Shown here piece by piece: positions 22,846-42,571 of a stretch of DNA of 64,000 nucleotides. Source of the stretch: Butyrivibrio sp. AC2005 (lineage in GTDB: Bacteria > Bacillota > Clostridia > Lachnospirales > Lachnospiraceae); NCBI RefSeq assembly GCF_000424145.1, contig NZ_AUJI01000011.1, positions 124,001 to 188,000 on the forward strand, read 5' to 3'. The notes beneath the pieces are model-generated. The model was not told where the DNA came from, ran no database searches, and saw only the letters and a program-made list of their open reading frames with translations. A program made the position numbers and the translations under genes. Positions within the stretch are counted from its first letter, which is position 1, and each line of letters starts with the position of its first letter.

Positions 22846-22908
22846 TTAAAAAATGTCGGATTGTCAATAATAAAAACTGTTCAGTAATTATTTCCTAAAT
22901 AATAGAAT
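22846..22908 (+). promoter_or_regulatory. Regulon motif site 1 and promoter of the GH3-pgmB unit
   Basis: TTAAAAAATGTCGGATT has its TGTCGGA core at 22854 and the -10 hexamer TAGAAT at 22903, 49 bp later. A possible second half-site TGTTCAG lies at 22878, 24 bp from the core. The -35 region is poor (TTCAGT), as expected for activator-dependent transcription. Nearly identical to site 2 over 60 bp. Confidence 0.75.
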
Positions 22909-22982
22909 CATAATCATGAAATTGTTTAAGCGAGGCAAAATGCATAAGCATAGCAATAATGCCGAAAGATAGGAGCATGATT

Positions 22983-24671
22983 ATGATCAATTACAAAGAC
23001 AAACCCTTTAACTTAAGCGATGAGAAAATCAAATGGGTTGAGAATACATATGAAAAAATGACGCTTGATGAAAAAATCGGACAGCTTTTCTGTCCGGTTA
23101 TTTTCAGCAAGGATGAGAACGAATTAAAGGAGACCCTCGATAAATATAAGATAGGTGGACTACTTTACAGAGAAGGACCGGGCGAGGAAATATGGAAGGC
23201 TCAGAGCTTTTTACAAAAGGAGAGCAAGATACCACTCCTTATTGCTGCAAACCTCGAGTATGGCGGAAATGGTTCGGCAGTTGAAGGAACCTACTATGGC
23301 AGAGAGATGCTTGTTGGTGCTACAGGAAATGCCAGACGCGGTTATGAGCTGGGGAAGGTTAGCTGCTCAGAAGGCGCAGCTGTAGGAGATAACTGGTCCT
23401 TTGCACCTGTAGTTGATCTCGACAGAAACTACCATAATCCAATTATAAATGTCAGGGCATTTTCAGATGATGTGCAGACAGTCATCGATATGGGAAGAGG
23501 TTATCTTAAGGCAGCAGCCGAAGAGGGCGTTGCTACAGCAGTAAAGCACTTCCCGGGTGACGGAATAGACGAGAGAGACCAGCACCTTCTTACAAGTGTC
23601 AATTCACTCTCTGTTGAAGAGTGGGACGAAACCTACGGAAAAATCTACGAGGCAATGATCGATGCCGGAACACTTAGCGTGATGGCGGGACATATCGCAA
23701 TGCCTGCCTATGAGGAACTCTTTGATGGAAAAGCACCTGAAAAGATTATTCCTGCTACGCTGTCTAAAAATCTTCTCGGTAAACTTCTCAGGGAAAAGCT
23801 CGGGTTTAACGGTCTTATTGTGTCTGATGCCACGCCTATGGTGGGCTTTTGCAGTGCAATGGACAGAGAACATGCTGTTCCATTTTGCATAGAAAACGGC
23901 TGCGACATGTTCCTGTTTAACAGAAACATCGATGAAGATTACGAATACATGCACAAGGGCTATGAAAAGGGCATCCTGTCCGAAGAGAGATTAGAGGAGG
24001 CCGTTAAGCGAATTCTTGCGACCAAGGCAGCTCTTAATCTTCCTGAAAAGAAGGCAAACGGTACTCTGGTTCCTGCTAAGGAAGGGCTTAACATTCTCTC
24101 ATCAGAGGAGCATGTGACCTGGGCAAAGGAGTGTGCTGATGAAGGAATTACCCTTGTAAAGGATACACAGAAGCTCCTTCCCATAAAGCCTGAAAATCAT
24201 AAAAGAGTTCTTCTTGAAATGATGGGAGGTTTTGAGTCTGACGAGCGCGTAACAAAATTTGTAATGGATAGACTTAAGGCTGAAGGTTTTGATGTGACAC
24301 TGTATGAAAAAGAAGGCTTTGAAGTAATGACCGACTCCGTGTCAAAGCTAAAATCCAGATACGATCTAATCATCTATGTTGGGAATGTGGAAACTGCATC
24401 CAACAAAACCACAGCAAGAATGAACTGGCACACAATGTTCGGACTTGGAAATAACATGCCCTGGATGGTACATGAGCTCCCGGTTATGTTTATAAGCTTC
24501 GGTAATCCGTATCATCTTCTCGATGCACCGATGATAAAGACCTTTATCAACTGTTACTGTAATTCTGAATTCGTTATGGATGCAGCAATTGACAAGATTT
24601 TAGGCAGAAGTGAATTTAAGGGGAAATCACCTGTTGATCCTTTCTGCGGAAAAATGGATTTGAGATTTTAA
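22983..24671 (+). CDS. GH3 glycoside hydrolase (beta-glucosidase / N-acetylglucosaminidase type)
   Basis: The ATG at 22983 is chosen because GGAG ends 7 bp before it; two other in-frame ATGs (22959, 22977) are upstream of or too close to that site. The 562-residue protein has a GH3 N-terminal barrel with KHFPGDGIDERDQH (K188, H189) and the nucleophile motif GLIVSDATP with Asp282. The His/Asp-containing loop resembles NagZ-type GH3 enzymes, so N-acetylglucosaminide activity is possible as well as glucosidase. The C-terminal domain (VTLVKDTQKLLPIK) is alpha/beta. There is no signal peptide, so it is cytoplasmic. It is driven by regulon site 1 and followed 19 bp later by pgmB. Confidence 0.88.
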   Translation: MINYKDKPFNLSDEKIKWVENTYEKMTLDEKIGQLFCPVIFSKDENELKETLDKYKIGGLLYREGPGEEIWKAQSFLQKESKIPLLIAANLEYGGNGSAVEGTYYGREMLVGATGNARRGYELGKVSCSEGAAVGDNWSFAPVVDLDRNYHNPIINVRAFSDDVQTVIDMGRGYLKAAAEEGVATAVKHFPGDGIDERDQHLLTSVNSLSVEEWDETYGKIYEAMIDAGTLSVMAGHIAMPAYEELFDGKAPEKIIPATLSKNLLGKLLREKLGFNGLIVSDATPMVGFCSAMDREHAVPFCIENGCDMFLFNRNIDEDYEYMHKGYEKGILSEERLEEAVKRILATKAALNLPEKKANGTLVPAKEGLNILSSEEHVTWAKECADEGITLVKDTQKLLPIKPENHKRVLLEMMGGFESDERVTKFVMDRLKAEGFDVTLYEKEGFEVMTDSVSKLKSRYDLIIYVGNVETASNKTTARMNWHTMFGLGNNMPWMVHELPVMFISFGNPYHLLDAPMIKTFINCYCNSEFVMDAAIDKILGRSEFKGKSPVDPFCGKMDLRF

Positions 24672-24690
24672 AGCGGGAGGATGACATATT

Positions 24691-25326
24691 ATGAAAGCTT
24701 TTATATTTGATCTTGACGGGGTTCTTGTTTTTACTGATAAATATCACTATCAGGGATGGAAAATGATAGCGAATAAGCTGGGAATAGACTTTGATGAAAA
24801 GAAGAATTCAAGACTTCGCGGTGTCAGCAGAATGGAATCTCTGGATATTATTCTGGAAGACAGTGTCAGAAAGTTTTCCGAAGAAGAAAAGGAAGATCTT
24901 GCTGCTGAGAAAAATGAATATTACAGGGAACTTCTGGGAACAATGACACCGGAAGACGTATCACCTGAAGTAAGGAATACACTTGCGGAACTTAGAAACA
25001 GAGGGCACAAGCTTGCGATAGGTTCTTCAAGTAAAAATACAAAGTACATCCTGGAAAGGGTGGGACTTACAGATTATTTTGACGCTATATCTGACGGAAC
25101 AAATATTACAAAATCCAAGCCTGATCCGGAGGTGTTCTCAAAGGCAGCAGAATTTTTAAGTGAAAATCCCGATAACTGCGTAGTTGTTGAGGATGCTGTT
25201 GCCGGAGTTATCGCAGGTAAAAGAGCCGGCATGAGAGTTGCGGGAATAGGCGACGCAGCATCATACGAAAAGACAGACTACAAAATAAGCGGATTTGGTG
25301 AACTTCTTAATATTTCTGCAAAGTGA
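24691..25326 (+). CDS. pgmB: HAD-family beta-phosphoglucomutase
   Basis: 211 residues. The N-terminal DLDGVLVFTD holds the nucleophile Asp of the HAD fold (DxDG). The cap domain carries KLGIDFDEKKNSRLRGVSRMESLDIIL, GSSSKNTKYILERVGL holds the motif II Ser, and KSKPDPEVFSKAAEFL plus VVEDAVAGVIAGKRAGM form motifs III and IV. It converts beta-glucose-1-phosphate to glucose-6-phosphate, so the unit may process phosphorolysis products of beta-glucosides. No phosphorylase is present in the window. GGGAGG precedes the ATG and a terminator follows. Confidence 0.85.
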   Translation: MKAFIFDLDGVLVFTDKYHYQGWKMIANKLGIDFDEKKNSRLRGVSRMESLDIILEDSVRKFSEEEKEDLAAEKNEYYRELLGTMTPEDVSPEVRNTLAELRNRGHKLAIGSSSKNTKYILERVGLTDYFDAISDGTNITKSKPDPEVFSKAAEFLSENPDNCVVVEDAVAGVIAGKRAGMRVAGIGDAASYEKTDYKISGFGELLNISAK

Positions 25327-25396
25327 TGGCCCTTTTGCAGGCTGTCTAAACAAGGGGGTCTGATTCATCAAGCATACTCAGATATGCAGTTGGAGG

Positions 25397-25429
25397 AAGG
25401 ATGTGGTCAGACTGGCTACATCCTTTTTG
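25397..25429 (+). terminator. Intrinsic terminator after pgmB
   Basis: AAGGATGTGG (25397-25406) pairs with CTACATCCTT (25416-25425), one G-U pair, then a T tract. It ends 5 bp before regulon site 2. Confidence 0.8.
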
Positions 25430-25433
25430 ATAT

Positions 25434-25495
25434 TAAAAAATGTCGGATTATCAAAAATAAAAACTGTTCAGTAATTATTCCCCAAATAATAGAAT
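25434..25495 (+). promoter_or_regulatory. Regulon motif site 2 and promoter of the GH43-like/two-component unit
   Basis: TTAAAAAATGTCGGATT has its core at 25441; the -10 TAGAAT is at 25490, 49 bp later. It is identical to site 1 at nearly every position, including AAACTGTTCAGTAATTATT. Because the histidine kinase and AraC-type regulator lie in this unit, the site implies autoregulation. Confidence 0.78.
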
Positions 25496-25580
25496 CTATA
25501 AAAAGAGAGCAGGATACCGCTTCTAATCGCTGCAAATATCAAGTCTTCCTCTTGAGGGGATAATTACTAAGGAGAATAAC

Positions 25581-27425
25581 GTGAAAAAAATACTTTGCAA
25601 TCCCATAAACATAGATTACCATTACCAATTCATAAAGGACGGAATGTCTGGCGAGCAGCACATTTCCAGAGAAGCAGCTGATCCCACATTTTTATTTTAT
25701 AAGGGGAAATACTATATTTTTGCATCCATGAATATGTCAGTGTGGGTATCTGATGATCTCATCAATTGGAAGAGCGTGCGTCTTCCCGACAACCTTCCGC
25801 TTCTTGACTATGCTCCGGATGTAAGAGTCATCGGAGACTATGTATATTTTAGTGCATCAAAAAGGGGAGAAATCTGCAACTTCTATCGCACCAGAGATAT
25901 TGAGAACGGACCATATGAGGAGATAGAAGGAACTTTTGACTTCTGGGATCCCAATCTTTTTCAGGATGATGATGGAAGAGTTTATTTCTATTGGGGATGC
26001 TCTAATATGACACCAATCTGGGGAGTGGAGCTTGACCCTGAGACCATGAAGCCTCTTTCAGAGAGAATTGAGCTTGTTCATGGACGCCCAAAGGAACTTG
26101 GCTATGAGAGATGCGGTGAGAATCATTCAAAGAGACTTATAGAAGGTGAGGAGCTGGACAGAGTATTTGAGGGGTTTAAAAAGAATATGGGAGAAGAGGC
26201 ATTTAGTAAGGCCTCTGATACAGACAAGGCTTTCTTTAGGAGTATGCTCAGCAACAATCCTTTCATTGAAGGTGCATACATGAATAAGCATGATGGAAAA
26301 TATTATCTTCAGTATGCAGCGACAGGTGCTGAATATAATGTTTACAACGATGGGGTATATGTATCCGATTCACCCCTTGGACCTTTTGAGCTTGCAAAGA
26401 ACAATCCCTATTCCTATCAGCCCGGAGGCTTTATGCCTGGGGCAGGACATGGCTCAACTATGGAGGATAAAAACGGTAATTTCTGGCATACATCAACCAT
26501 GAGAATAAGCCTTAATGATCCCATGGAGCGAAGAGTCGGTATATGGCCTGCAGGCTTTGATAATGATGGTGAGCTGTTCTGTAATACTGGTTACGGAGAC
26601 TGGCCAAGGAGCATAAATGACGGGAAAACGGATCCATGGGCTGAGCCTGAATGGTTCCTTCTTAGCAGGAATGCAAAGATGAGTGCATCATCTGTAAGTA
26701 AAGAGGATACGGTTTCACCTGTAGGTGATAACAATCCTGAGAGAGCCTGTGAAGAGGATATCAGAACCTGGTGGAGAGCAGCTAGTAACAAGCCTGGTGA
26801 ATGGCTTCTCATGGATATGCGCGAAGTTAAGGACGTCAGATTTATTCAGATCAATTTCGCGGATGACAGTATTGAAGCTCTTCCGCCCGGAGAGATACCT
26901 GAAAACGGATTCGGCGCAAGACTCATTGATGAGAGAAAATATGTGACAAGATATGTGCTGGAAGGATCATCTGATGGCGAAAACTATGAGATTCTGAGCG
27001 ATAAATCCAAGGCTGATACCAATCTTCCTCATGATACTTTGCTTATAGAAAATGGAAAAAGGTTACGTTTTATAAAGCTCACAATTCTGGAGCTTCCAAT
27101 GAATCAAAAGGCAGCAGTATCAGGTATTCGCGTATTTGGAAAAGGTAACGGAAGGGCTCCCGGAGAGGTTACATTTACTGCTACTATTGAGAGCGAATTG
27201 GATATGAGTATAACAATGTCTTCCGAGGGCGCGGATGGTTATAACATTAAGTGGGGACATGCAGAGAATAAGCTCTATCACAGTTGCATGTACTACCCGG
27301 AGAAAGGCTCATCTAAGGGTACGAGATCTATCGGTGCACTTATAAAAGGTCAGGAGGTATACCTTCAGGTCGATGCCTTTAATGAAAACGGAATTACTCA
27401 TGGTGATGTACAAAAGCTGAGATAA
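25581..27425 (+). CDS. GH43-like five-bladed beta-propeller glycosidase with C-terminal F5/8C-type and beta domains
   Basis: 614 residues, no signal peptide, so cytoplasmic. The N-terminal propeller has the GH43 catalytic triad pattern: ADPTFLFYKGKYYIF (base Asp near residue 35), FDFWDPNLFQDDDGRVY (pKa-modulating Asp) and NNPFIEGAYMNKHDGKYYL (general acid Glu). GHGSTMEDKNGNFWH matches the last blade. A discoidin-like domain (about 370-530, with WWRAASNKPGEWLLMDM and LEGSSDGENY) and an FnIII-like tail follow. It likely releases arabinose, xylose or a related sugar. GGAG lies 8 bp before the ATG. The histidine kinase gene follows after 30 bp. Confidence 0.83.
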   Translation: MKKILCNPINIDYHYQFIKDGMSGEQHISREAADPTFLFYKGKYYIFASMNMSVWVSDDLINWKSVRLPDNLPLLDYAPDVRVIGDYVYFSASKRGEICNFYRTRDIENGPYEEIEGTFDFWDPNLFQDDDGRVYFYWGCSNMTPIWGVELDPETMKPLSERIELVHGRPKELGYERCGENHSKRLIEGEELDRVFEGFKKNMGEEAFSKASDTDKAFFRSMLSNNPFIEGAYMNKHDGKYYLQYAATGAEYNVYNDGVYVSDSPLGPFELAKNNPYSYQPGGFMPGAGHGSTMEDKNGNFWHTSTMRISLNDPMERRVGIWPAGFDNDGELFCNTGYGDWPRSINDGKTDPWAEPEWFLLSRNAKMSASSVSKEDTVSPVGDNNPERACEEDIRTWWRAASNKPGEWLLMDMREVKDVRFIQINFADDSIEALPPGEIPENGFGARLIDERKYVTRYVLEGSSDGENYEILSDKSKADTNLPHDTLLIENGKRLRFIKLTILELPMNQKAAVSGIRVFGKGNGRAPGEVTFTATIESELDMSITMSSEGADGYNIKWGHAENKLYHSCMYYPEKGSSKGTRSIGALIKGQEVYLQVDAFNENGITHGDVQKLR

Positions 27426-27455
27426 GAGATATTCGGCTGATTAATATGTTTAAAT

Positions 27456-29234
27456 ATGAATAAATTCAGGGAATCTATAGCATTTAGAATTATAGCAGTG
27501 GTAATACTTCTCGTATTACCACTCAACATATTGACTGTGGTATTTTTGCACAGAGTAATTGCGGACAGCGATGAGCGGATGAATATGGAAAGCCGTTCCT
27601 CGCTGTCTGTGTCGTCTTCATACTTAAAGGGACAGCTTAAGTCTGTGACAAGAAGACTCTTATATGAAAACGTTATAAATAACAATTTTTCAGAGCTTGC
27701 AGACAAAGATGGAAAGGTACCTTTAAACACTAAGGGAGAAATTGTACAGACTATAGGTAAGCTGTTTGATCAGATATTGGATGAATATGAGGTGATTGAT
27801 CTTGTATATTGCCGTTTCCCTGACAGCGACATATTTATAACAAAGGGCTCTCCCGGGGCTTCCAGAGAGGAATACAAAAAAGCAATTGAAGATACCACAA
27901 CTGATGTAAGCAGTAAATACGGAACAGTCTGGAAGATAATTGAGATGGAAAATACGCCATATCTCATAAGCCTGACAAGATGGAAGGACAGGGAGTTTGG
28001 CTGCATGCTCAATCTGAGAAAGACAGGAGACCACATAGTGAATTATGGTGGAGCCGAGGATAAGTATTTCTTTTTCACTGATTCCGAAATGAATATGACC
28101 CCGGTATCAAATATAGAGGCGCTCAATTCAATTTTCATATCTGTTGATGAAAAGGATGGTCATGATGAGCTGACACGTGATGGCAGTATAAATGGTGAGA
28201 AATACAGATTTTATGGAGAAAATCTTGAAGGATACGGGATAATGATGATACAGGCTGTTCCAAGGAGCGGAATTATAGCCGGATTATCAAAGGAATCCAT
28301 TATACTGATTTTTATTGCAATAGTATTAACTGCAATGGCTATTCCGATTATGCTTTTGATGCTAAGACGCCTTTTGTTTGTACCTGTTTCGAAAATAAAT
28401 CTTGGCATGAGGCGCATTGAAAATGGCGAAATAGATTATCGTCTTGATGAAAAAATGGGAAGTGCAGAGTTATCCGGCATCAGTCACAGCTTTAATGAAA
28501 TGATGGATGAGCTGGAAAATCTTAAAATCGATGTGTACGAGAAGGAGCTTGAAAGAAAGGACATTACCACAAGGTATCTTGCAAAACAGATACAACCACA
28601 TTTTATACTTAATGCTCTCAACATACTCTATAGCTATGAGCCTGAAGAGTATGAGCTTTCAAGAAAAATGATCTTAAGTATTTCGAAGTATTTCAGATAT
28701 GTTGTATATGTAAAAAACAGATTTGTCACACTCTCTCAGGAGATGGATTTTGTAAAGAATTATCTGGATATACAACATATAAGATATCCTGATCAGTTTT
28801 TCTCGATTGTCGAATATGAGGAAGAACTTGCGGATTATCTCATGCCTCCTCTTATAGTGCAATCGCTTACAGAGAATGCCATTAAACATTCATTGAAAAT
28901 CGGCAACCGCATAAATATTTTTGTTATAACTGACCATATTACTGATTGTGGAACGGATAAGATAAGGATCAGGATCTATGACACTGGAGAAGGAATCACG
29001 GATGAAATACTTGAGGAAATCCGAATATTCCAAAGAACCGGGGAACCTCAGGAGCATCTGGGAGTAGGTATACAGAATACTATCGAAAGGCTGAAGGTTT
29101 TGTACTCTGATATGACAACTATAAAATTCGAAAGAGATAATGCCTCAGGCGGAACTAATATAGATATTCTCTTGCCAATGATAAAAGAAAATAGCGGATC
29201 AGGAGACTATGCACATGAAACTGCTTCTTGTTGA
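27456..29234 (+). CDS. YesM-type sensor histidine kinase
   Basis: 592 residues. There is one N-terminal TM helix (IIAVVILLVLPLNILTVVFL), an extracellular sensor region to about residue 275, a second TM helix, a HAMP-like linker (RLLFVPVSKINLGMRRIENGEIDYRL), then the His_kinase domain with the phospho-acceptor motif QPHFILNALNIL (His382) and the HATPase domain (TENAIKHSLKIGN; DTGEGI). This is the class that partners AraC-type response regulators to control glycan-use genes. It probably senses extracellular oligosaccharide or a binding protein. The stop overlaps the response regulator start by 20 bp. Confidence 0.92.
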   Translation: MNKFRESIAFRIIAVVILLVLPLNILTVVFLHRVIADSDERMNMESRSSLSVSSSYLKGQLKSVTRRLLYENVINNNFSELADKDGKVPLNTKGEIVQTIGKLFDQILDEYEVIDLVYCRFPDSDIFITKGSPGASREEYKKAIEDTTTDVSSKYGTVWKIIEMENTPYLISLTRWKDREFGCMLNLRKTGDHIVNYGGAEDKYFFFTDSEMNMTPVSNIEALNSIFISVDEKDGHDELTRDGSINGEKYRFYGENLEGYGIMMIQAVPRSGIIAGLSKESIILIFIAIVLTAMAIPIMLLMLRRLLFVPVSKINLGMRRIENGEIDYRLDEKMGSAELSGISHSFNEMMDELENLKIDVYEKELERKDITTRYLAKQIQPHFILNALNILYSYEPEEYELSRKMILSISKYFRYVVYVKNRFVTLSQEMDFVKNYLDIQHIRYPDQFFSIVEYEEELADYLMPPLIVQSLTENAIKHSLKIGNRINIFVITDHITDCGTDKIRIRIYDTGEGITDEILEEIRIFQRTGEPQEHLGVGIQNTIERLKVLYSDMTTIKFERDNASGGTNIDILLPMIKENSGSGDYAHETASC

Positions 29235-29985
29235 CGATGAGATAGTTGCTCTTAATGCACTAAAGCGAAGAGTAGACTGGATAAAATATGGTTTTTCCGA
29301 TGTATATACTGCAATGGATGCAGATAATGCAAGAAAAATGCTTGATGAGAATACAATAGACCTTGTTTTATGCGATATCGAGATGCCTGGGGACAGTGGG
29401 CTCATACTGTCAGCAGAGATTAGAGATAACTATGAAAACACAGAGGTTATAATGGTAACCTGTCACTCGGATTTTGATTCAATGAAAAGCTCGATGCAGA
29501 ATAGGGTAAGAGACTATCTTCTTAAACCAATAGATTATGATGAACTTGATTTGATGTTGAAAAAGTACATTGAAGATAAGGAAAAGAGAGAAACTAAGGA
29601 TAAAATCGATAGAATTGTCAGGATAGCGGAAGAAAAAGACACTGATGAAATAACAGACAAGGATCCCATTGAGAAGGCAGAAGAATATATTGAGAAGCAT
29701 TTGTCAGAAAAGATATACGTTGAGAATTTGGCTAAGATTGCATATATGAATGAACAGTATTTTATGCGTGTTTTTAAAAAGCGGACACAGAAGAGTGTTA
29801 CTGAGTATATTACTGATAAGAGAATGCAGCTTGCAGCGCAGCTTTTAAGGGACACCGATAAATCCATAAGCTTTATTGCGGATGCTGTAGGGATCACGGA
29901 TGATGCGTATTTTTCAAGAAGCTTTAAGAAACATTCGGGGATTTCTCCAACAGAGTATAGGAACAGATTTTCCGGAAAGTCATAA
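29215..29985 (+). CDS. AraC-type response regulator (YesN family)
   Basis: The start is the ATG at 29215 (GGAG 9 bp upstream); an ATG 6 bp earlier is possible. In the 256-residue product the receiver domain has MKLLLVDDE with Asp7/Asp8 and phospho-acceptor Asp54 (LCDIEMPG), plus the Lys of DYLLKPIDYDEL. The C-terminal two HTH motifs (KIAYMNEQYFMRVFKKRTQKS; IADAVGITDDAYFSRSFKKHSG) are AraC-type. The receiver is short and the linker is a coiled region rich in Lys and Glu. It is the best candidate to bind the TGTCGGA sites in front of five nearby units, including its own. Confidence 0.92.
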   Translation: MKLLLVDDEIVALNALKRRVDWIKYGFSDVYTAMDADNARKMLDENTIDLVLCDIEMPGDSGLILSAEIRDNYENTEVIMVTCHSDFDSMKSSMQNRVRDYLLKPIDYDELDLMLKKYIEDKEKRETKDKIDRIVRIAEEKDTDEITDKDPIEKAEEYIEKHLSEKIYVENLAKIAYMNEQYFMRVFKKRTQKSVTEYITDKRMQLAAQLLRDTDKSISFIADAVGITDDAYFSRSFKKHSGISPTEYRNRFSGKS

Positions 29986-30090: not shown

Positions 30091-31671
30091 ATGAAAAACA
30101 AATTATTGAGTGTCTTACTTGCATGTTCACTGACAGTAACTATGATTGCAGGTTGTGGAAGTACAGGAACAGAATCAAAAGATAGTAATGAAACTTCTAC
30201 AGATAGCACTTCTGCTGAAGGCGCTGACGAGGATGTTGCTGAGGTTGCACCTGCAGAAATAGATATGGATGAAGAACCATATGAGGTAGCTATTCAGCTT
30301 GTTACACTTCCGGGTACCGATTATTCAGCATATGAAGCTGAGATGGAAGAGAAAATAAATGAGATTACAGTTCCTGCTATAAACGCAAAGCTGGATATCC
30401 AGTTTGTATGGATTAACGAGATTGCCAATAAAACAAGTCTTGCTGTTGCAGGAAATGAGAAACTTGATCTGGTTCATGTTGCTACAGTAAGTCCGCTTTC
30501 ATCAATGGTCGGTGCTGACATGCTTTATGACATGAATGAGGATGATCTTCTTAAGACTCATGGACAGACTTTGGTTTCTCTTTTTAGCGACATTCTTGAA
30601 GCAGGTGAGGTTGACGGACAACAGCTTGCGGTTCCTGCAAAGCTCTATAATGCTGTTGCAAAGGGACTTGATTTTAACAAGACGGCAGCAGAGAACGAAG
30701 GTGTTGATATTCCTGCAACCGGAAATCTTGAAGATCTTGATAGAGCTCTCACAGATCTCAAAAACTCCGGTAGTGACATAATCGGATGGTATGCAGGAGA
30801 GGGAACTAATAACTATTTATACTGGTTAGAAGGATATGAAAGCTTCGGTACAAATGCATCCTATGGTGCGGTGCTTGATTCAGACAAGGATACAACGGTA
30901 GTGAATCTCTATGATACAGAAGATTTCCTTGACTATGCCCTTCTTACTTACAAGTGGAGACAGGAGGGAATCATTCGGAAGGATTCTACTGATAATACAA
31001 GCGCTCAGGATTACTTTAATGCACAGCAGATATTTTGCTACCCCGGAGATATTACTCCTCAGCTTAATGCAAACTACTCTGCAACAGCAAAGAATAATGG
31101 ATTTGAACTTGGAACAATGCAGATGGTAGAACCCAAGATTACAAATGCTTCTGTGACAGAGTATATGTGGGGAATTGCTGTCAATTCAGAGCGACCTGAC
31201 AAGGCAATGGATATGCTTAACTTTATTTATGAGAATGCTGATGTTGCCAATATTCTGATGTATGGTCTTGAGGGAACAAACTATGAGTTTGTTGAAGGTT
31301 CAGATAAGGTAATCGAAACTAACGGTTCATATATTGCATCTTTTGTACAGATCGGAAATCCCGAGAATATGCTTATTCAGTCACCTGCAGGAGAAGACTA
31401 TTACGAACAGTGGGAGGCGTTTTCTGCCAAGGCAACAACATCACCTATTGTAGGTTATATGTTCAGTGATGCGGATTACCAGACTGAATCAGCAGCTATT
31501 ACCAATGTTATAAATCAGTACATGCCTACACTTATGAATGGCTCATGTGAGAGTGAGGATGCCACAAAGGCATATGTTGAGGAATTTGTTTCAGCTCTTG
31601 AAGCAGCAGGAATGAATGATGTAATAGCAGGAAACCAGGAACAGCTTGATGCATATCTTGCCAGGCAATAA
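30091..31671 (+). CDS. CUT1 ABC transporter extracellular solute-binding lipoprotein
   Basis: 526 residues. The lipoprotein signal MKNKLLSVLLACSLTVTMIA precedes the lipobox Cys (GCGST), with a Ser/Thr/Glu-rich linker behind it. The body is a family 1 solute-binding domain of the LplA type (large oligosaccharides), with INEIANKTSLAVAGNEKLDLVHVA and EYMWGIAVNSERPDKAMDMLNFIYEN. GGGAGG precedes the ATG. It is followed by two permease genes and no ATPase, so a shared MsmX/MsiK-type ATPase elsewhere in the genome would power it. The likely cargo is an oligosaccharide or glycoside degraded by the neighbouring GH enzymes. Confidence 0.9.
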   Translation: MKNKLLSVLLACSLTVTMIAGCGSTGTESKDSNETSTDSTSAEGADEDVAEVAPAEIDMDEEPYEVAIQLVTLPGTDYSAYEAEMEEKINEITVPAINAKLDIQFVWINEIANKTSLAVAGNEKLDLVHVATVSPLSSMVGADMLYDMNEDDLLKTHGQTLVSLFSDILEAGEVDGQQLAVPAKLYNAVAKGLDFNKTAAENEGVDIPATGNLEDLDRALTDLKNSGSDIIGWYAGEGTNNYLYWLEGYESFGTNASYGAVLDSDKDTTVVNLYDTEDFLDYALLTYKWRQEGIIRKDSTDNTSAQDYFNAQQIFCYPGDITPQLNANYSATAKNNGFELGTMQMVEPKITNASVTEYMWGIAVNSERPDKAMDMLNFIYENADVANILMYGLEGTNYEFVEGSDKVIETNGSYIASFVQIGNPENMLIQSPAGEDYYEQWEAFSAKATTSPIVGYMFSDADYQTESAAITNVINQYMPTLMNGSCESEDATKAYVEEFVSALEAAGMNDVIAGNQEQLDAYLARQ

Positions 31672-31692
31672 TACAGTTTGGGAGCATTAAAA

Positions 31693-32622
31693 ATGGGAAC
31701 AAAAAAGCAAAAGATAAACTGGAAGCATTGGATGCCTTTCTATCTGATGTTTCTTCCCGGGGCTGCGTACTTACTGATAAATAATTATATTCCGCTGTAC
31801 GGGCTTCAGCTCGCTTTCAAGTCCTTCAGCTATAAAAAAGGTATTGGCGGCAGTAAGTGGATAGGATTTAAAAACTTTAAGTTTTTGTTTTCTACAAGTG
31901 ATGCATTTATCATGATTCGAAATACTCTGCTTTATAATATCCTGTGGATTTTTATTGGCATGATTTTCGGAATCACAGTGGCGATTCTGTTTAATGAAGT
32001 AAAAAATGCAGTTGCTAAAAAGATATATCAGACAGCAATTCTTCTGCCTTATCTTATGTCCATGGTAGTTGTGGCTTATCTTGTATATGCATATCTTGCA
32101 GGAGATACAGGACTTGTAAACAACGCTATTGTAAAGGGAATTTTCGGAAAAAGCGATGGTGTACAGTGGTATGGGGATCAAAAATACTGGCCCTTTATTC
32201 TGACCTTTGTACAGCAGTGGAAGCAGATTGGCTTTGGTATGCTTCTATACCTTGCCAGCCTTTTGGGAATAGATAATTCATACTATGAAGCTGCGATGCT
32301 TGACGGAGCAACAAAATGGCAACAGATAAAGCTTATAACACTGCCATTATTAAAGCCGACAATAATTATGCTGGTGATTCTGAACCTTGGACAGATTTTC
32401 AGATCTGACTTTGGTCTGTTCTATCAGGTTCCGATGAACCAGGGAGCTCTGTTTGGCACTACACAGACTATAGACACGTATGTATACAGAGCACTTCTTG
32501 AAAATAATAATGTTGGAATGTCGGCAGCAGCAAGCTTTCTGCAGTCAATAGTAGGATTTATTTTTATAATCACAGCCAATGCTATTGTAAGAAGACTTGA
32601 TGAAAACAGTTCACTTTTCTAA
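31693..32622 (+). CDS. CUT1 ABC transporter permease, LplB type
   Basis: The start is the ATG at 31693, 8 bp after GGGAG; a TTG 15 bp earlier precedes that site. The 309-residue, six-helix membrane protein contains the ATPase-contact EAA loop YYEAAMLDGATKWQQIKLITLPLLKP and an N-terminal FYLMFLPGAAYLLINNYIPLYG helix with the LplB-like GLQLAFKSF segment. It forms a heterodimer with the next permease. The spacing is 21 bp to the binding-protein gene and 11 bp to the next gene. Confidence 0.92.
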   Translation: MGTKKQKINWKHWMPFYLMFLPGAAYLLINNYIPLYGLQLAFKSFSYKKGIGGSKWIGFKNFKFLFSTSDAFIMIRNTLLYNILWIFIGMIFGITVAILFNEVKNAVAKKIYQTAILLPYLMSMVVVAYLVYAYLAGDTGLVNNAIVKGIFGKSDGVQWYGDQKYWPFILTFVQQWKQIGFGMLLYLASLLGIDNSYYEAAMLDGATKWQQIKLITLPLLKPTIIMLVILNLGQIFRSDFGLFYQVPMNQGALFGTTQTIDTYVYRALLENNNVGMSAAASFLQSIVGFIFIITANAIVRRLDENSSLF

Positions 32623-32633
32623 GGGAGGAAGTT

Positions 32634-33518
32634 ATGGTATCAAAAGATCAAAAAAGGTGGAATATTGCAGCTAATATCGTCATGACTATCATGACAGCAC
32701 TGGCCATTCTTCCTTTCATACTGCTTATTATAGCTTCGTTTACTGAAGAGAATACGGCATTAAAATACGGATACAGTTATTTTCCGAAGGCTTTTTCACT
32801 TGATGCGTATGCGTATATATTACAAAATGCTTCGACCTTTGTAAGAGCTTACGGAATGACTATTGTTGTAACTGCGTTGGGAACGGCTGCTTCGATAGTA
32901 CTAACAGCACTTACAGCCTATGTGCTTTCAAAGAAGGGGCTGCCTGGTGGAAAAATACTCACATTGATTGTAGTATTTACCATGCTTTTTAATGGTGGAC
33001 TGGTAGCAACATATATCAGCTATGTTACGATATTTCATATCAAGAATACGCTATTTGCACTCGTATGTCCTTCTCTTTTAATGAATGCATTTAGCATTAT
33101 GCTGGTAAGAAATTACTTTGCAAACAGTATTCCTGAGGAAATATATGAGTCGGCCAGAATAGACGGGGCATCTGAGCTAACGATTTTTTTTAAGCTTGTG
33201 CTGCCTCTCTCTGTTCCGATTCTTGCAACCGTGGGACTTATGGCAGGCATTGCATATTGGAATGACTGGCAGAATGCGCTTTATTACGTCGATGATAAAA
33301 AACTCTATACAATTCAGGCAATCCTGAATTCAATAAATGATTCGATATCGGCACTTACTTCTCTTGGAGGCTCTGCGGGAGTAACTGTGGCAGATCTTCC
33401 TTCAACAACTATCAGAATGGCAGTTGCAGTTGTCGGAATACTACCGGTGCTTGTAGTATATCCCTTTTTCCAAAAATATTTTGCCGCCGGTTTGATGGCC
33501 GGTTCTGTAAAAGGATAA
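32634..33518 (+). CDS. CUT1 ABC transporter permease, YtcP/LplC type
   Basis: 294 residues with six helices and the EAA loop IYESARIDGASELTIFFKLVLPLSVP. GGGAGG sits just before the ATG. The C-terminus ends with PFFQKYFAAGLMAGSVKG, the usual last segment of this permease family. It is the last gene of the transporter; a terminator follows within 10 bp. Confidence 0.93.
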   Translation: MVSKDQKRWNIAANIVMTIMTALAILPFILLIIASFTEENTALKYGYSYFPKAFSLDAYAYILQNASTFVRAYGMTIVVTALGTAASIVLTALTAYVLSKKGLPGGKILTLIVVFTMLFNGGLVATYISYVTIFHIKNTLFALVCPSLLMNAFSIMLVRNYFANSIPEEIYESARIDGASELTIFFKLVLPLSVPILATVGLMAGIAYWNDWQNALYYVDDKKLYTIQAILNSINDSISALTSLGGSAGVTVADLPSTTIRMAVAVVGILPVLVVYPFFQKYFAAGLMAGSVKG

Positions 33519-33526
33519 GTCCTGTG

Positions 33527-33573: not shown

Positions 33574-33636
33574 TTAAAAAATGTCGGACTTAAAAAAAAT
33601 AAAGATGTGTATTATATGTGCTTCAAATAATAAAAT
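33574..33636 (+). promoter_or_regulatory. Regulon motif site 3 and promoter of the esterase-GH78 unit
   Basis: TTAAAAAATGTCGGACT has its core at 33582. The -10 is TAAAAT at 33631, exactly 49 bp later, within AAATAATAAAAT. A TGTGTAT half-site lies at 33606 (24 bp from the core). The -35 region is poor. Confidence 0.75.
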
Positions 33637-37610: not shown

Positions 37611-37658
37611 AAAGTGCCTCGTCACCCTTAAAAGTATTCTGGTAACGAGGCACTTTTA
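37611..37658. terminator. Bidirectional terminator between GH78 and the convergent chemoreceptor gene
   Basis: AAAGTGCCTCGT (37611-37622) pairs with ACGAGGCACTTT (37645-37656) with further pairing of ACC and GGT inside. A tracts and T tracts flank both sides, so it can serve both converging genes. Confidence 0.85.
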
Positions 37659-37676
37659 TGTTAAATAGGATATAAA

Positions 37677-39710
37677 TTATACTTTGAATACATTTATAAG
37701 GTTTTCTATTTCTTCTGAAGAATCACTTACAGCGGTAGCACTGTGATCAACACCTTTAGAATTCTCTGCAACCATCTCAGCGCTGGATGTGAGGTGTGTT
37801 GCGGTAGCACTTACTTCCTGAGTACTTGCTGACTGTTCCTCTGAAATGGCTGCCATAGAGGTTGCAATTTCATCTACACTGCCGACTTTGGATATCATTT
37901 CTCCAACAATATCGCTGGTTTCGTCAAGACTCTTGAAGATTTCTTCAAAGGTAGCGCCTGCAGTATCAACAGCATCCATGTTAGAGCGAATCTCATCCAT
38001 GTTGGATTGAGATTTGCGTGAAAGCTCCTCAATCTGAATAGTGATATCCTTTATGATGGAAGATATCTGTTGGGTTGAATCAGCAGAGTTCTGCGCAAGC
38101 TGTCCAATTTCCTGTGCAACAACGGCAAAACCTTTTCCGGCTTCACCTGCTCTTGCAGCTTCAATGGATGCATTAAGTGACAGGAGATTAGTCTGGCTGG
38201 AGATGGAATTGATCATATCTACGATTGAGTTAATCTTCTGGGCGGACTCTCCAACTACCGAAACAACCTCGTTCATATCTGACATTGATTGTGATATTCC
38301 TGTCATACCATTCTGGACAATTTCCATGTCTCGCTGTCCGTCTTTTGCCTTAGTAACAAGAGAATCCATGACATCTCTTGTCCGCTGGCTCTTGTCTGTG
38401 AGGTCTGATACCTCCTGGGCAAGGGTTGTTGCCTGATTGGCAAGTTCTGTCACAGCGTCTGCCATATCATCCATAGCACCCTGTATCTGTTGCATGGCCT
38501 TTGACTGTTCATCGGCCTGGTAATTCAGGTCGCTTGATGCACTCTTTGAATTATTTGCTTCTCCTGAGAGTTTTTCAGTTACATCTTTCATCTTTATCAG
38601 GGTATCACGCATCTGAGCAACATAATCAGCCATATTGTTGTTCATAAGGCCTATTTCATTTTCGCCTCCGCGTGTGCCTTTAGCTATCTCTACAGTGAAG
38701 TCACCCTGGGATATACGTGTGATATTATCTGTAAGTCTGCTGACAGGTTTTGCAATCATTGCGTTAAGTACGAAGAGCATAACAACGCTGCCGGAAAGTA
38801 TTATTATTACCCCAATTACAGCAATGATGATAATAAATTTGTTTAATTCAGCCAGTACATCGCTCTCTTTTACGAAGGATGCCAGGTACCAGTTTGTACC
38901 GCTTACCGCATCAATAGAAACGTAGTAATCAGCACCATCAGTTCCGTGAAGAACGAATACATCACTTCTTCCGCCGGAGGTTGTTATCTTGGAAATCTCC
39001 TGAATAAAGTTATCATTAGGATATTCTGAAACATCCTTACCTATCTGATCTGTTGCGGGTGATGCAACTATTATGGTTCCATCAAACATCATTGTTGAAC
39101 CTGTTCCAAGTGGCTTATAGGCACTGGCAGTTTTGGAAATTCCGGATAATACGATATCTGTGGAGAGGACACCGGATCTTCCGTCAGTCAGTGTCACACC
39201 GCGAGACCCACAGACAACCATTTGCCCTGTTGTCAGATCTACCGAAGGATCTCCGAGTACTATGCTGGACTTTCCCTGTCCGTTCTGGTACCAGGCTCTG
39301 GTTGTCGGATCATAGCCTTCGTCAGGAACCCAACCGCCGCCATCATAGAAGTAATCTTTACCAAAGGCAAGGTATACATCGCTGACTACTCCGGGATAGG
39401 CTTTCATTCCGGGTTCCAAGGATTTTAAGATTGCAGCATCATCTGCGTAGTCTGAAACCTGAAGTGTATCGGCATACGCATTGTAATAGGAAACAATACC
39501 CTCCATCATTCCGGAGATGTCGGACGCATTTTTTCTTGCTTCCTGCTGTAGTCCGTTCTTCGCGCTATCAATAATGATATTTCTTGCATTAAAAGCCAGA
39601 AAAATAGTAACAAATGCAATTGCAGATATTACCATAGGCAGCAGGATTGCAAGTAGTTGCCCGGTAATATGCTTGCTCATTACTTTAGTGCCGTTTTCGT
39701 TATTCGCCAT
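37677..39710 (-). CDS. Methyl-accepting chemotaxis protein with dCache sensor
   Basis: The ATG at 39708-39710 is chosen because GGAGG lies 9 bp upstream; a longer frame has no such site. The 677-residue product has an N-terminal TM, a periplasmic/extracellular dCache domain (about 60-300, with YYNAYADTLQV and WVPDEGYDPTTRAWY), a second TM, a HAMP domain (ISQGDFTVEIAKG), and the signalling helix hairpin with INSISSQTNLLSLNASIEAARAGEAGKGFAVVAQEI. It is transcribed opposite to the GH2 gene and next to the glycan regulon, so it may steer the cell to the same plant sugars. Its ligand is unknown. Confidence 0.93.
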   Translation of the reverse strand: MANNENGTKVMSKHITGQLLAILLPMVISAIAFVTIFLAFNARNIIIDSAKNGLQQEARKNASDISGMMEGIVSYYNAYADTLQVSDYADDAAILKSLEPGMKAYPGVVSDVYLAFGKDYFYDGGGWVPDEGYDPTTRAWYQNGQGKSSIVLGDPSVDLTTGQMVVCGSRGVTLTDGRSGVLSTDIVLSGISKTASAYKPLGTGSTMMFDGTIIVASPATDQIGKDVSEYPNDNFIQEISKITTSGGRSDVFVLHGTDGADYYVSIDAVSGTNWYLASFVKESDVLAELNKFIIIIAVIGVIIILSGSVVMLFVLNAMIAKPVSRLTDNITRISQGDFTVEIAKGTRGGENEIGLMNNNMADYVAQMRDTLIKMKDVTEKLSGEANNSKSASSDLNYQADEQSKAMQQIQGAMDDMADAVTELANQATTLAQEVSDLTDKSQRTRDVMDSLVTKAKDGQRDMEIVQNGMTGISQSMSDMNEVVSVVGESAQKINSIVDMINSISSQTNLLSLNASIEAARAGEAGKGFAVVAQEIGQLAQNSADSTQQISSIIKDITIQIEELSRKSQSNMDEIRSNMDAVDTAGATFEEIFKSLDETSDIVGEMISKVGSVDEIATSMAAISEEQSASTQEVSATATHLTSSAEMVAENSKGVDHSATAVSDSSEEIENLINVFKV

Positions 39711-39810
39711 AGTATAATCCTCCATTGCAGATTGTAGTAACATGATTATATTTTAAGCGATATAGCGTAATGGAGGATAAATCGTGTATTAATTATTTAT
39801 TATTTTTATA

Positions 39811-39873
39811 TTAATAAATGTCGGATTCTCCGCAAATTAAGAAGTGTTCCATCTAAACCTCAAATTATAGAAT
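39811..39873 (+). promoter_or_regulatory. Regulon motif site 4 and promoter of the GH2 gene
   Basis: TTAATAAATGTCGGATT has its core at 39819; the -10 TAGAAT is at 39868, 49 bp later. A TGTTCCA half-site is at 39845 (26 bp from the core). The site lies in the divergent gap with the chemoreceptor gene, which could share its control. Confidence 0.75.
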
Positions 39874-39927
39874 TGCTTATGAACAGACTAATTTGTGCAT
39901 AACGCAGTATTTAAGAGGTGGAACATA

Positions 39928-42387
39928 ATGAAAAAAACAAAATGGAACGATAACTGGCTTTTCTGGAACAGCAAGAATGCCTTTGCTCTAGTGTGGAGCA
40001 TTCCTGAAAATGCGAGAAAAATTACACTTCCCCATGATGCGATGATAGAGACAGAGACCCATGCTGATTCGCTTAATGGTGGCAATACAGGATTCTATGA
40101 TGGTGGTTCCTATACTTATGTGAAGTTTTTTGAATCAAAAAAGGGTGACAGAAGCAGGAATATAATGCTCTTATTTGAGGGTGCTTACATGAATACCTTT
40201 GTCTATGTTAATGGTCAGCTTGCTGCTAACAGACCTTATGGATATTCAGAGTTCACAGTTCCGATTTCTCAGTTTTTAAAGGAAGAGGGCGAGAATGAAA
40301 TTCGCGTTCAGGTGAGAAACAATGCATGTCAGAACAGCCGCTGGTACACAGGCTCCGGAATCTACAGAGACGTATACCTTCTTGAAGCGGATAATACCTA
40401 TATAAAGGAAAACAGCTTCCTGATAACTACTGAAGAATGTAATGAAGAAGAGGCAACAGTACATCTTAAGGCATCTGTAAGGAATGCGGATATAGCGCCA
40501 AAAGACCTTGTTATCAGCTTTGGAATTTTGGACAGGAATGGAGAGCTTATTGCTTCCGATCAAAAGGTAATCAGCGCTAAGGCTAATTCTGAGATGACTG
40601 TTTTTTCAAGATTATATGTAGACAAGCCATCACTTTGGTCTGATGAAAATCCCGCACTTTATAAGGCTGAAGTTACGGTGTTCGAAGCAAAGGAAGAGAA
40701 TGACGGGCAGACAGGCTGCGGAGAACCTCTGGATGATGAAGCGGAGATCTTCGGTATCAGAAAGCTGAGACTTGATGCAAAGCATGGCCTTAGAGTGAAC
40801 GGAAAAAGTGTTAAGCTTCGTGGAGCCTGCATTCACCACGACAGTGGAATCTTAGGGGCAAAGACTTTTTATGAAGCTGAATACAGAAGAGTTGCTATAT
40901 TAAAAAAAGCCGGCTTTAATGCCATAAGAATGTCTCATCACCCTGCGGCACCTGCACTTGTAAAGGCCTGTGATGAACTCGGAATGTATATCATGGATGA
41001 AGCCTTTGATATGTGGACCAGGGCAAAATCAGACTATGACTATAATCTGTATTTCATGGACTGGTGGGAGCGTGATGTGGAAGCGATGGTCATGAAGGAC
41101 TACAACCATCCTTCCGTTATTCTGTATTCAATCGGTAATGAAATTCCTGAGATCGGAACAGATGAAGGCGCAAGGCTTGCTGCAGAAATCAGCGGACTTT
41201 GCCACAAGCTGGATCCTAACAGATATACCCTTGCTTCAATAAACGGAGTGTTTGCGGCAGGAGATGCTGTGCCTAAGATTACTGCAGATGTTGCTGCATC
41301 TGTAGAAGATGGTGATGATTCCATAAACGTAAATGATTTCATGACTATCATGGATAAGTACATGGATAAAATTGTCGTACATCCTGAGATCACAAAGCGT
41401 CTGGACAAGGCCTGTGCAGCAACTGACATAGCAGGTTATAACTACATGACAGCACGTTACAGCCTTGATGCCAAAAAGGCTCCTAACCGTGTTATTGTCG
41501 GTAGTGAAACCTATCCTCCTGAGATTGCTGTAAACTGGAGAGAGGTTACAAAATACCCTCAGGTTATCGGAGATTTCACCTGGACAGGTTGGGACTACCT
41601 GGGAGAAGCAGGCGTAGGAATTCCTGCATATAAATTCGGTGAGGGCGGCTTTGGCGCACAGTTCCCTGCTAAGCTTGCTTATACAGGAGATATTGATATC
41701 ACAGGCTTTAGAAGACCTTTATCATATTACAGGGAGATTGTTTTCGGACTAAGAAAAGCTCCTTATATAGCAGTTCAGGATCCCGCACACTATGGCGAGA
41801 ATCTGATAAAGACACCCTGGGTAATGAGTGATACTGTTTCAGGATGGACCTTTAGCGGATATGAAAATAAGCCGGTTGTGGTTGAGGTTTATTCTTCAGG
41901 GGATGAGGTGGAATTATTACTTGATGAAAAATCCATAGGAAAGAAAAAGGTTGTGGAAGAGGATAACTGCAGAACTCTTTTTGAAACAACTTATCAGCCG
42001 GGAACCTTAAAAGCTGTGGCATACAAAGATGGCGAGAACATAGGAGAATATGAGCTAACTACTGCAGTGGGAGATATGAAGCTTTTTGCTGAGGTAGATG
42101 GAAATATATTGGAAGATAGTGAGATAGTATACGTGAATCTTTCTCTTCAGGACTCTGATGGAGATGTTTTCATAAACTCTGATCAGAGTATTACGCTTGA
42201 GCTTGAAGGTGACGCTGAGCTTTTAGGCTTTGGATCAGGTAATCCCAAAGAGCAGGAGCCTTATAGTAGCAATACTTCAAATACCTGGAATGGACGTGCC
42301 CTGGCTATTGTCCGTAAGATACCGGGAAAAAAAGTCGTTCTCAAGGCAGCTATAGATTCAGGTATTAAAACTGAAATAATACTGTGA
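39928..42387 (+). CDS. GH2 glycoside hydrolase
   Basis: The ATG at 39928 follows AGAGGTGG. The 819-residue protein has no signal peptide. An N-terminal sugar-binding jelly-roll (AYMNTFVYVNGQLAANRPYGYSEF; RVQVRNNACQNSRWYTGSGIYRDVYL), an immunoglobulin-like domain, a TIM barrel (RGACIHHDSGILG; NAIRMSHHP; IMDEAFDMW), and two C-terminal domains are in GH2 order. The acid/base Glu405 is in SIGNEIPEIG and the nucleophile Glu527 in VIVGSETYPPE. Activity could be beta-galactosidase, beta-glucuronidase or related; the sequence does not decide. It is under regulon site 4, followed by a terminator and the GPH symporter gene. Confidence 0.92.
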   Translation: MKKTKWNDNWLFWNSKNAFALVWSIPENARKITLPHDAMIETETHADSLNGGNTGFYDGGSYTYVKFFESKKGDRSRNIMLLFEGAYMNTFVYVNGQLAANRPYGYSEFTVPISQFLKEEGENEIRVQVRNNACQNSRWYTGSGIYRDVYLLEADNTYIKENSFLITTEECNEEEATVHLKASVRNADIAPKDLVISFGILDRNGELIASDQKVISAKANSEMTVFSRLYVDKPSLWSDENPALYKAEVTVFEAKEENDGQTGCGEPLDDEAEIFGIRKLRLDAKHGLRVNGKSVKLRGACIHHDSGILGAKTFYEAEYRRVAILKKAGFNAIRMSHHPAAPALVKACDELGMYIMDEAFDMWTRAKSDYDYNLYFMDWWERDVEAMVMKDYNHPSVILYSIGNEIPEIGTDEGARLAAEISGLCHKLDPNRYTLASINGVFAAGDAVPKITADVAASVEDGDDSINVNDFMTIMDKYMDKIVVHPEITKRLDKACAATDIAGYNYMTARYSLDAKKAPNRVIVGSETYPPEIAVNWREVTKYPQVIGDFTWTGWDYLGEAGVGIPAYKFGEGGFGAQFPAKLAYTGDIDITGFRRPLSYYREIVFGLRKAPYIAVQDPAHYGENLIKTPWVMSDTVSGWTFSGYENKPVVVEVYSSGDEVELLLDEKSIGKKKVVEEDNCRTLFETTYQPGTLKAVAYKDGENIGEYELTTAVGDMKLFAEVDGNILEDSEIVYVNLSLQDSDGDVFINSDQSITLELEGDAELLGFGSGNPKEQEPYSSNTSNTWNGRALAIVRKIPGKKVVLKAAIDSGIKTEIIL

Positions 42388-42432
42388 TAGAAAATTAAAT
42401 AATTCGAGATATCATGTAATATAATGTAGTTT

Positions 42433-42490
42433 CCCCGATAACTGTCCGGAATCTAAAATATTAGGCCGGATTATTATCGGGGATTTTTAT
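42433..42490 (+). terminator. Intrinsic terminator after GH2
   Basis: CCCCGATAA (42433-42441) pairs with TTATCGGGG (42474-42482), and CCGG pairs inside the hairpin (TCCGGA / GCCGGA). A T-rich tail follows. It ends before regulon site 5. Confidence 0.8.
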
Positions 42491-42506
42491 TTATATTTAT
42501 GCATCT

Positions 42507-42571
42507 TAAAAAATGTCGGATATAGATAAACATATTACATGGAGCAGGAAGTATTACCTTGCTATTATAAT
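42507..42571 (+). promoter_or_regulatory. Regulon motif site 5 and promoter of the GPH symporter
   Basis: TTAAAAAATGTCGGATA has its core at 42514. TATTAT is at 42563, exactly 49 bp later, with TATAAT overlapping at 42566. This promoter lies inside a longer upstream reading frame and therefore supports the shorter start at 42630. Confidence 0.72.

Follow-up and report, generated by a model that had tools for sequence, protein, structure and literature searches.

The DNA considered here, positions 124,001 to 188,000 of contig NZ_AUJI01000011.1 of Butyrivibrio sp. AC2005 (64,000 nucleotides, hereafter the window), contains an island of glycan-utilization genes in which five putative promoters share one element: a 15-bp box, TTAAWAAATGTCGGA, followed at a constant distance by a -10 hexamer. 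Encoded in the island are glycosidases of the families GH78, GH2, GH3 and GH43, transporters of the ABC and GPH types and a regulator, here termed AraC1. The element, its occurrence in related genomes and the protein likely to read it are the subject of this analysis. The principal features are listed in window coordinates; box 1 denotes the 15-bp box and box 2 a second, weaker box.

22846..22908, + strand: site 1, with box 1 (TTAAAAAATGTCGGA) at 22846-22860, box 2 columns at 22877-22882 and -10 TAGAAT at 22903-22908; upstream of the GH3 (22959) and HAD (24691) genes
22959..24671, + strand: GH3 family glycosidase, proposed target
24691..25326, + strand: HAD-family hydrolase, in one unit with the GH3 gene
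25433..25495, + strand: site 2, with box 1 at 25433-25447, box 2 columns at 25464-25469 and -10 TAGAAT at 25490-25495; upstream of the GH43, histidine kinase, response regulator and ABC importer genes
25581..27425, + strand: GH43 with F5/8-type C domain, proposed target
27456..29985, + strand: histidine kinase (27456-29234) and AraC-type response regulator (29209-29985)
30091..33518, + strand: ABC importer, solute-binding protein with DUF3502 and two permeases
33574..33636, + strand: site 3, with box 1 at 33574-33588, box 2 columns at 33605-33610 and -10 TAAAAT at 33631-33636; upstream of the esterase (33671) and GH78 (34786) genes
33671-34702, + strand: alpha/beta-hydrolase esterase, proposed target
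34786-37599, + strand: GH78 alpha-L-rhamnosidase, proposed target
39811..39873, + strand: site 4, with box 1 (TTAATAAATGTCGGA) at 39811-39825, box 2 columns at 39842-39847 and -10 TAGAAT at 39868-39873; upstream of the GH2 gene (likely ATG 39928)
39928..42387, + strand: GH2, beta-galactosidase-like (below NCBIfam cut-offs), proposed target
42506..42571, + strand: site 5, with box 1 at 42506-42520, box 2 (ACATGG) at 42537-42542, -10 TATTAT at 42563-42568 and an alternative -10, TATAAT, at 42566-42571; upstream of the GPH-type symporter gene (likely ATG 42630)
42630..44042, + strand: MFS_2 / GPH-type sugar:cation symporter, proposed target
44112..45233, - strand: AraC1 (373 aa), a cupin domain joined to an AraC-type DNA-binding domain; candidate activator at all five promoters

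The 15-mer occurs without mismatch at 22846, 25433, 33574, 39811 and 42506, always on the + strand. A preliminary description of the window had placed three of these sites correctly and the second and fifth one base off (25434 and 42507). Its central observation is borne out: the start of TGTCGGA and the start of the -10 hexamer are 49 bp apart at all five sites, with TAGAAT, TAGAAT, TAAAAT, TAGAAT and TATTAT as the hexamers of sites 1 to 5. The half-site it described at a variable 24-26 bp in four sites is better aligned as fixed columns at +23 to +28 in all five, including ACATGG at site 5, which had been overlooked. The -35 boxes are poor, as had been stated (TTCAGT, TTCAGT, TGTATT, TGTTCC and TGGAGC at 17-bp spacing, sites 1 to 5). 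Because the promoters have no -35 element, it is the expected outcome that a promoter scan with TTGACA-type rules lists none of the five, with overlapping entries at sites 1 and 2 only on the opposite strand. Folding places a hairpin followed by a T-run directly upstream of site 2 (-18.3 kcal/mol, z -5.4), site 3 (-16.1 kcal/mol, z -4.9) and site 5 (-28.2 kcal/mol, z -5.3); at least three of the sites therefore open a new transcription unit. A rule-based terminator scan missed these hairpins. The unit behind site 2 consists of the GH43, histidine kinase, response regulator and ABC genes, separated by short gaps. The open reading frame listed for the symporter starts at 42513, within box 1, which is an artefact.

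The combination of box and spacing is specific to these five sites. The window contains 10 further TGTCGGA, and none is followed at +49 by a hexamer of at least 5/6. In the 5.1-Mb genome AAATGTCGGA occurs 17 times; the TTAAWA prefix is found at only the five window sites, and these are also the only ones with a hexamer of at least 5/6 at +49. A profile of the element recovers exactly these five sites in the own genome at 35-40 bits, the next listed match having 15.6 bits. Dinucleotide shuffling of the stretches downstream produced a distance shared by every site in 0 of 3000 trials, in 0 of 3000 without site 1, and in 5 of 3000 without sites 1 and 5; by these shuffles and the genome-wide counts a chance origin was rejected. 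A further match with three mismatches at 45336 was rejected as a site, as it is the start of the methylglyoxal synthase gene. The five sites differ in their mutual likeness. Between -10 and about +55, sites 1 and 2 have almost the same sequence, with 38 of 42 spacer bases identical and unrelated flanks, so that one promoter has been duplicated and the two are not independent. In every other pairing among sites 1 to 4, 19 to 25 of 42 spacer bases agree; site 5 agrees with the other window sites at only 13 to 15.

The same arrangement is found in other genomes (handles beginning with G denote genomes). The 15-mer is present in 15 of 397 genomes of the family, the own genome included. Three of these (G291, G231 and G322) hold four copies with TAAAAT, TAAAAT, TACAAT and TAAACT (the last, in G322, 4/6) at exactly +49, and the genes behind the copies encode an esterase, GH2, GH78, GH43 and an MFS_2 symporter, the same kinds as in the window. 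No such hexamer stands at +49 of the copies in the other 11 genomes; G096 has TAAAAT at +50, and a 3.2-kb contig of G240, a genome outside the set searched with the profile, encodes a fragment 45% like AraC1. Among 391 genomes of the class, 11 contain the 15-mer, including the own genome and the family genome G027, and none of the nine outside the family has a -10 at +49. The bare 15-mer was rejected as stand-alone evidence because most of its occurrences elsewhere look like chance.

What is kept is a layout of 70 bp, consisting of an A-tract with TGTCGG, a weaker ACATGG box at +23 to +28 over the -35 position, and a -10 at +49. It precedes related GH78, GH2, GH3, GH43, esterase and symporter genes in other genera of the family, with unrelated spacer sequence; for example, a GH3 70-73% identical to that of the window lies downstream of the element in G322, G148, G265, G110 and G373, and a 50% identical one in G231. 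Recurrence of the 49-bp spacing across genera despite the unconserved spacer supports a DNA-binding protein at a fixed position. Altogether 23 sites from nine genomes align without gaps across the 70 bp and carry about 45 bits of information (box 1 21.6, the second box region 10.7, the -10 6.7); columns +30 to +48 carry little, and therefore it is the distance, not the sequence, that is kept. Compared with itself, the alignment gives 21 bp as the best internal repeat shift (score 7.15, with 24 and 26 next at 6.1), the repeat being imperfect and the margin small; in G234, TGTCGG and CGTCGG are 21 bp apart. When 47 sites, part of them selected using the -10, were collapsed to 36 clusters at 75% identity, TAnnnT stood at +49 in 34 of the 36, compared with about 0.03 per other offset.

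The spacing was also read from sites found without regard to it. The 345 kb surrounding AraC1 orthologues contain 11 WWAAATGTCGGR sites, one of which is cut by a contig end (L125:49) and was excluded before counting. Nine of the ten readable sites have a hexamer of at least 5/6 at +49, the tenth being TAAACT in G322; the nine include GATAAT in G373 and an upstream tandem copy in G148 (L120:13710, TATAAC at +49), which was kept in the count. A held-out set consisted of 15 genomes from three genera, genus-mates of G148, G265 and G322, 11 of the 15 belonging to one genus, and the profile found sites in six of them (G776, G781, G785, G788, G789 and G790). In ten stretches of these six, a scan for the two boxes that ignored the -10 gave 21 sites; three are second copies 62 bp upstream of another site, with TGATGG at +49, and were dropped before counting. 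The other 18 have TAnnnT (16 sites) or CAGAAT (2) at +49, against a background of about 0.04 per offset. Several of these are orthologous sites of near relatives; after collapse at 75% identity together with six further sites from G110, G265 and G373, TAnnnT is at +49 in 12 of 14.

Tandem second copies of the element form a small group of their own: in three related genomes the second copy lies 62 bp upstream of the proximal site (L211:9807/9869, L214:5997/6059 and L218:9208/9146), and in G148 it lies 30 bp upstream (L120:13710/13740).

Presence of the sites follows the presence of AraC1. The listed open reading frame of this gene starts at 45395, and its orthologues begin at about the internal ATG at 45233. 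The C-terminal part matches the Pfam families HTH_18 and HTH_AraC above cut-off (two helix-turn-helix motifs), the sensor domain matches AraC_binding above cut-off, and the predicted structure has a mean pLDDT (predicted local distance difference test) of 82.5. In the model the C-terminal domain resembles those of YesN, AraT, MarA and AraC. The sensor has a cupin-type fold like that of RhaR (5u93; Z 14.7, root-mean-square deviation (rmsd) 2.5, 155 residues), followed by AraC (2arc; Z 11.9, rmsd 2.9, 143 residues) and the lactose sensor BgaR (6nwo; Z 9.9, rmsd 3.3, 140 residues), at only 12-14% sequence identity, so the ligand cannot be read from the fold match. Over the whole length, Foldseek ranks ToxT, Rns and CsvR first by E-value, but with TM-scores of 0.24-0.39, and the domains are therefore placed differently in these proteins. 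AraC1 stays below the NCBIfam equivalog cut-offs for AraC (73.7 of 208 bits), RhaS (69 of 288) and RhaR (50.3 of 363). All matches in 889 plasmid records are below 60%.

Orthologues of AraC1 (41-57% identical) exist in 11 of the 397 family genomes besides its own. A profile search of 24 genomes (E<=1e-3) gives sites in ten of these 11: five each in G110 and G231, four in G148, three each in G322 and G265, two in G192 and one each in G291, G373, G379 and G234. Eight of the ten contributed to the training of the profile; G373, G379 and four of the five G110 sites lay outside it. Of the regulators encoded next to the sites in G291 and G231, the one closely related to a window protein is a one-component cupin-AraC, 52-54% identical to AraC1. 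Among the held-out genomes, orthologues of 53-56% are found in exactly the six with sites (partial in G790), and the other nine have neither site nor orthologue, their best AraC1 matches being at most 34%; on the assumption of independent genomes, this split has a probability of 1 in 5005 (Fisher's test). The DNA-reading helices, HYSEPHLxTLI and GYNSADHFSRVFR, are alike across the orthologues; those of G110, G373, G379, G234 and G144 deviate at one to three positions.

With high confidence, we regard AraC1 as a class II activator of the AraC/XylS type for a rhamnoside-glycan regulon, and the 15-mer as the upstream half-site of its operator. From the sites, their spacing and conservation and the co-occurrence of regulator and site, which come from direct analysis, and from the predicted fold of AraC1, we infer binding, two subunits, a class II contact, activation rather than repression, and an inducer. 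A downstream half-site over the -35 is the class II layout of AraC-type activators, and here box 2 (+23 to +28) overlaps the position of a -35 with a 17-bp spacer (+26 to +31), a stretch in which the -35 hexamers are poor. We envisage two subunits bound head-to-tail, with a symmetry like that of a 21-bp direct repeat. Taking the -10 hexamer as -12 to -7, the upstream subunit would occupy TTAAAAAATGTCGGA, the stronger half-site, at about -69 to -55, and the downstream subunit the weaker CRTGG-type box at about -38 to -33, replacing the missing -35 element. The downstream subunit would contact RNA polymerase, and we propose that the 49-bp spacing is fixed for this reason. The cupin domain would sense a sugar, probably released from a rhamnose-bearing glycan, whereupon AraC1 would switch on uptake (the symporter and, via site 2, probably the ABC importer) and the GH78, GH2, GH3, GH43 and esterase set. 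Given the GH78 and the neighbouring rha genes, the substrate is likely to be a plant glycan or glycoside that carries rhamnose.

The preliminary description had concluded from the spacing that one activator touches the polymerase, and its wording agrees with ours insofar as the sequences point to one regulon and one DNA-binding protein held in a fixed position relative to polymerase. It named the response regulator encoded at 29209 as that protein, within a regulon of a YesM/YesN-type two-component system. The response regulator is encoded inside the cluster, in a unit probably driven by site 2, it carries an AraC-type DNA-binding domain, and G291, G373, G110 and G322 hold both a 41-51% homologue and sites. 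Moreover, in G291 a weak 14.1-bit match (L220:18022), with GGTCGG and TGTCGG exactly 21 bp apart and TAAAAT at +50, stands before genes for a putative esterase and a GH2; histidine kinase, response regulator and ABC genes lie in the same region, with the 51% homologue about 7.5 kb from the match; this speaks for the response regulator and against AraC1, which G291 holds as well. Across genomes the sites nevertheless track AraC1 and not the response regulator. Five genomes (G231, G265, G379, G234 and G788) have sites and, among the candidates scored, no response regulator homologue at E<=1e-20, and three (G784, G786 and G787) have homologues of 35-39% and no site. In 224 kb around the homologues of eight genomes there are no WWAAATGTCGGR sites and no position-matrix match above 9 bits; a control of 153 kb around AraC paralogues gave one WWAAATGTCGGR site (G367). 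Across the AraC1 and held-out stretches (503 kb), matches to the response regulator are almost confined to its helix-turn-helix part; exceptions occur in G231, at 27%, and in G144, where only the receiver is matched. Used as a query against the named genomes, the response regulator finds seven loci, all distant. Its recognition helices, like those of the neighbouring regulator AraC2, clearly differ from the pattern kept in AraC1 orthologues. That the response regulator binds the five sites is thus an improbable explanation: the spacing observation was right, and stronger than the window could show, and the earlier reading was most likely wrong about the protein.

Even less probable is binding by AraC2 (45868-46854), although this too is a cupin-AraC gene of the same island. 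Orthologues of AraC2 (49-55%) occur in seven of the nine held-out genomes without sites (G777, G778, G780, G782, G783, G784 and G787), and in site-bearing genomes most of them lie at a distance from the sites or on a different contig, although G231 has both on one contig. In the window, AraC2 is divergent from a rhaA, class II aldolase and FGGY-kinase set at which the profile has no match among the 12 of 16 own-genome matches listed (E<=1). An explanation of about the same low standing is that equal spacing records recent promoter duplication within one genome and is not constrained by function. Duplication is clear for sites 1 and 2, and the spacers of sites 1 to 4 are more alike among themselves than with site 5; the duplication-only explanation is already contradicted by the sites of other genera, where the spacing is the same and the spacer unrelated, as in the clusters counted above (some of them chosen with the -10) and in the 16 of 18 held-out sites found without using it. 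Least probable of all, the element could be a core promoter for an alternative sigma factor instead of an activator site. A fixed distance and a box near -35 are also typical of sigma-specific promoters, but about 22 of the 45 bits are located 39-57 bp before the -10, beyond the reach known for sigma factors; the -10 is of the ordinary type, and the element tracks an AraC gene (no search for sigma factors was made).

Several points count against AraC1 as the class II activator of these promoters, or reduce the weight of the evidence for it. Within the window, site 5 has a second candidate -10, a perfect TATAAT at +52, which together with the duplication of sites 1 and 2 leaves about four independent cases; by spacer likeness sites 1 to 4 may share ancestry, and with the duplication this means that the window by itself could not exclude shared descent. 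No outstanding hairpin was found by folding ahead of sites 1 and 4. The profile is sequence-only, and the sites on which it was trained had in part been selected initially by a -10 at +49. As the held-out genomes are related to one another, the 6/9 split represents fewer independent events than 15, and the held-out regions were chosen by profile matches, only the two-box scan leaving the -10 out. G144 has a 43% orthologue of AraC1 and no site (best match 15.4 bits), and the contig of G231 carries two further AraC-type genes (L078:2983-3729 and L078:11256-12095), the first of them 27% like the response regulator, with no receiver domain found. A laxer scan gave TGTCGGA with TATTGT at +49 in the response regulator stretches and with TATTTT at +49 in the paralogue stretches, both hexamers 4/6 and both sites without the A-tract. 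Of the 12 genomes without an AraC1 orthologue, one, G033, has a profile match (24 bits) beside a 32% AraC paralogue; by position matrix its site at L153:7140 reaches 31 bits. The G367 site (L149:18489), like that of G033, lies beside a 32-35% AraC paralogue, and there box 2 and the -10 have moved together by one base, which leaves the distance between them unchanged. The operator type is therefore not private to AraC1.

Known class II activators of the AraC/XylS family (AraC at araBAD, RhaS, XylS at Pm, MtlR) share with the AraC1 case a stronger upstream and a weaker downstream half-site, the latter next to or over a weak -35, a repeat shift of 21 bp and the combination of cupin and AraC-type DNA-binding domain. 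They differ in operator sequence, which for AraC1 is AAAAAATGTCGG / CRTGG, and in target genes; AraC1 reaches no NCBIfam cut-off among the 25 of 31 matches listed, and its binding and class II contact are proposed. According to the excerpted text of PMC4514859, the upstream half-sites are bound more strongly in MelR, RhaS and seemingly MtlR, and the distance from the MtlR site to the -35 equals that of XylS/Pm and MekR. Predicted AraC-family L-rhamnose regulators of Bacillales, Bacteroides and Enterococcus are described in excerpts of PMC3870299 as having direct repeats with 21-bp periodicity. The repeats and the link to rhamnose use are shared with AraC1, as far as the motifs can be compared by their description and not by logo. 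Those regulators control rhamnose catabolic genes, whereas here the sites stand before a GH78, its companion glycosidases, an esterase and a transporter, and the nearby catabolic genes (47079-50848) have no site among the matches listed. The gene content of the locus is of the type of Gram-positive polysaccharide utilization loci, which according to PMC5320581 combine glycosidases, an ABC or GPH transporter and an AraC-type regulator in one locus; one row of its table has a histidine kinase, a response regulator and a chemotaxis transducer beside AraC, and no GH78 locus of the present make-up is among the rows listed.

The two-component genes themselves are probably co-transcribed with the GH43 gene from site 2, and their operon is probably one of the targets of AraC1. 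When the 503 kb covered by the AraC1 and held-out stretches was searched at E<=1e-5, nothing matched the histidine kinase, the solute-binding protein or the first permease of the window; the two-component/ABC operon therefore looks like a local addition, placed under AraC1 by means of the copied promoter. It is conceivable, though we would put it at somewhat below even, that a sensor cascade arose here by promoter duplication, a 60-bp AraC1-dependent GH3 promoter having been copied before the GH43, histidine kinase, response regulator and ABC operon in a lineage-specific rewiring.

Other genes in and around the island are given below. The chemoreceptor lies inside the glycan island and may sense the same sugar. 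The methylglyoxal synthase gene is divergent from AraC1 and overlaps its over-long listed start. AraC2, which has relatives of 42-57% in 23 of 27 family genomes checked (two partial), more likely controls L-rhamnose catabolism as a separate rhamnose regulon, as suggested by its divergence from the genes for RhaA, class II aldolase and FGGY kinase.

37677-39743, - strand: chemoreceptor with dCache and MCP signalling domains
45343-45813, + strand: methylglyoxal synthase (above NCBIfam cut-off)
45868-50848: L-rhamnose set, AraC2 (- strand) divergent from RhaA (47079), class II aldolase (48280) and FGGY kinase (49424)
51001-61429, + strand: large signalling proteins, namely an SBP_3-EAL-PAS-GGDEF protein (1319 aa), an HD-domain protein (708 aa) and a Reg_prop hybrid kinase with receiver and a weak Hpt match (1407 aa)

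Literature searches, with most subscription journals outside their scope, found no title or abstract on this operator or regulon among the entries listed. To our knowledge, few operators of glycan regulators have been defined in this family, and for a family of Bacillota of gut/rumen type, probably the Lachnospiraceae, the analysis would pair a regulator with an operator of defined sequence, spacing and target genes. The 70-bp profile locates the regulon in genomes outside its training set, and because the spacing is rigid, class II activation can be tested directly in bacteria of this kind. A two-component system inside a cluster need not be the master of that cluster; if the cascade is true, a surface two-component sensor and an importer would stand under the control of an intracellular one-component sugar sensor.

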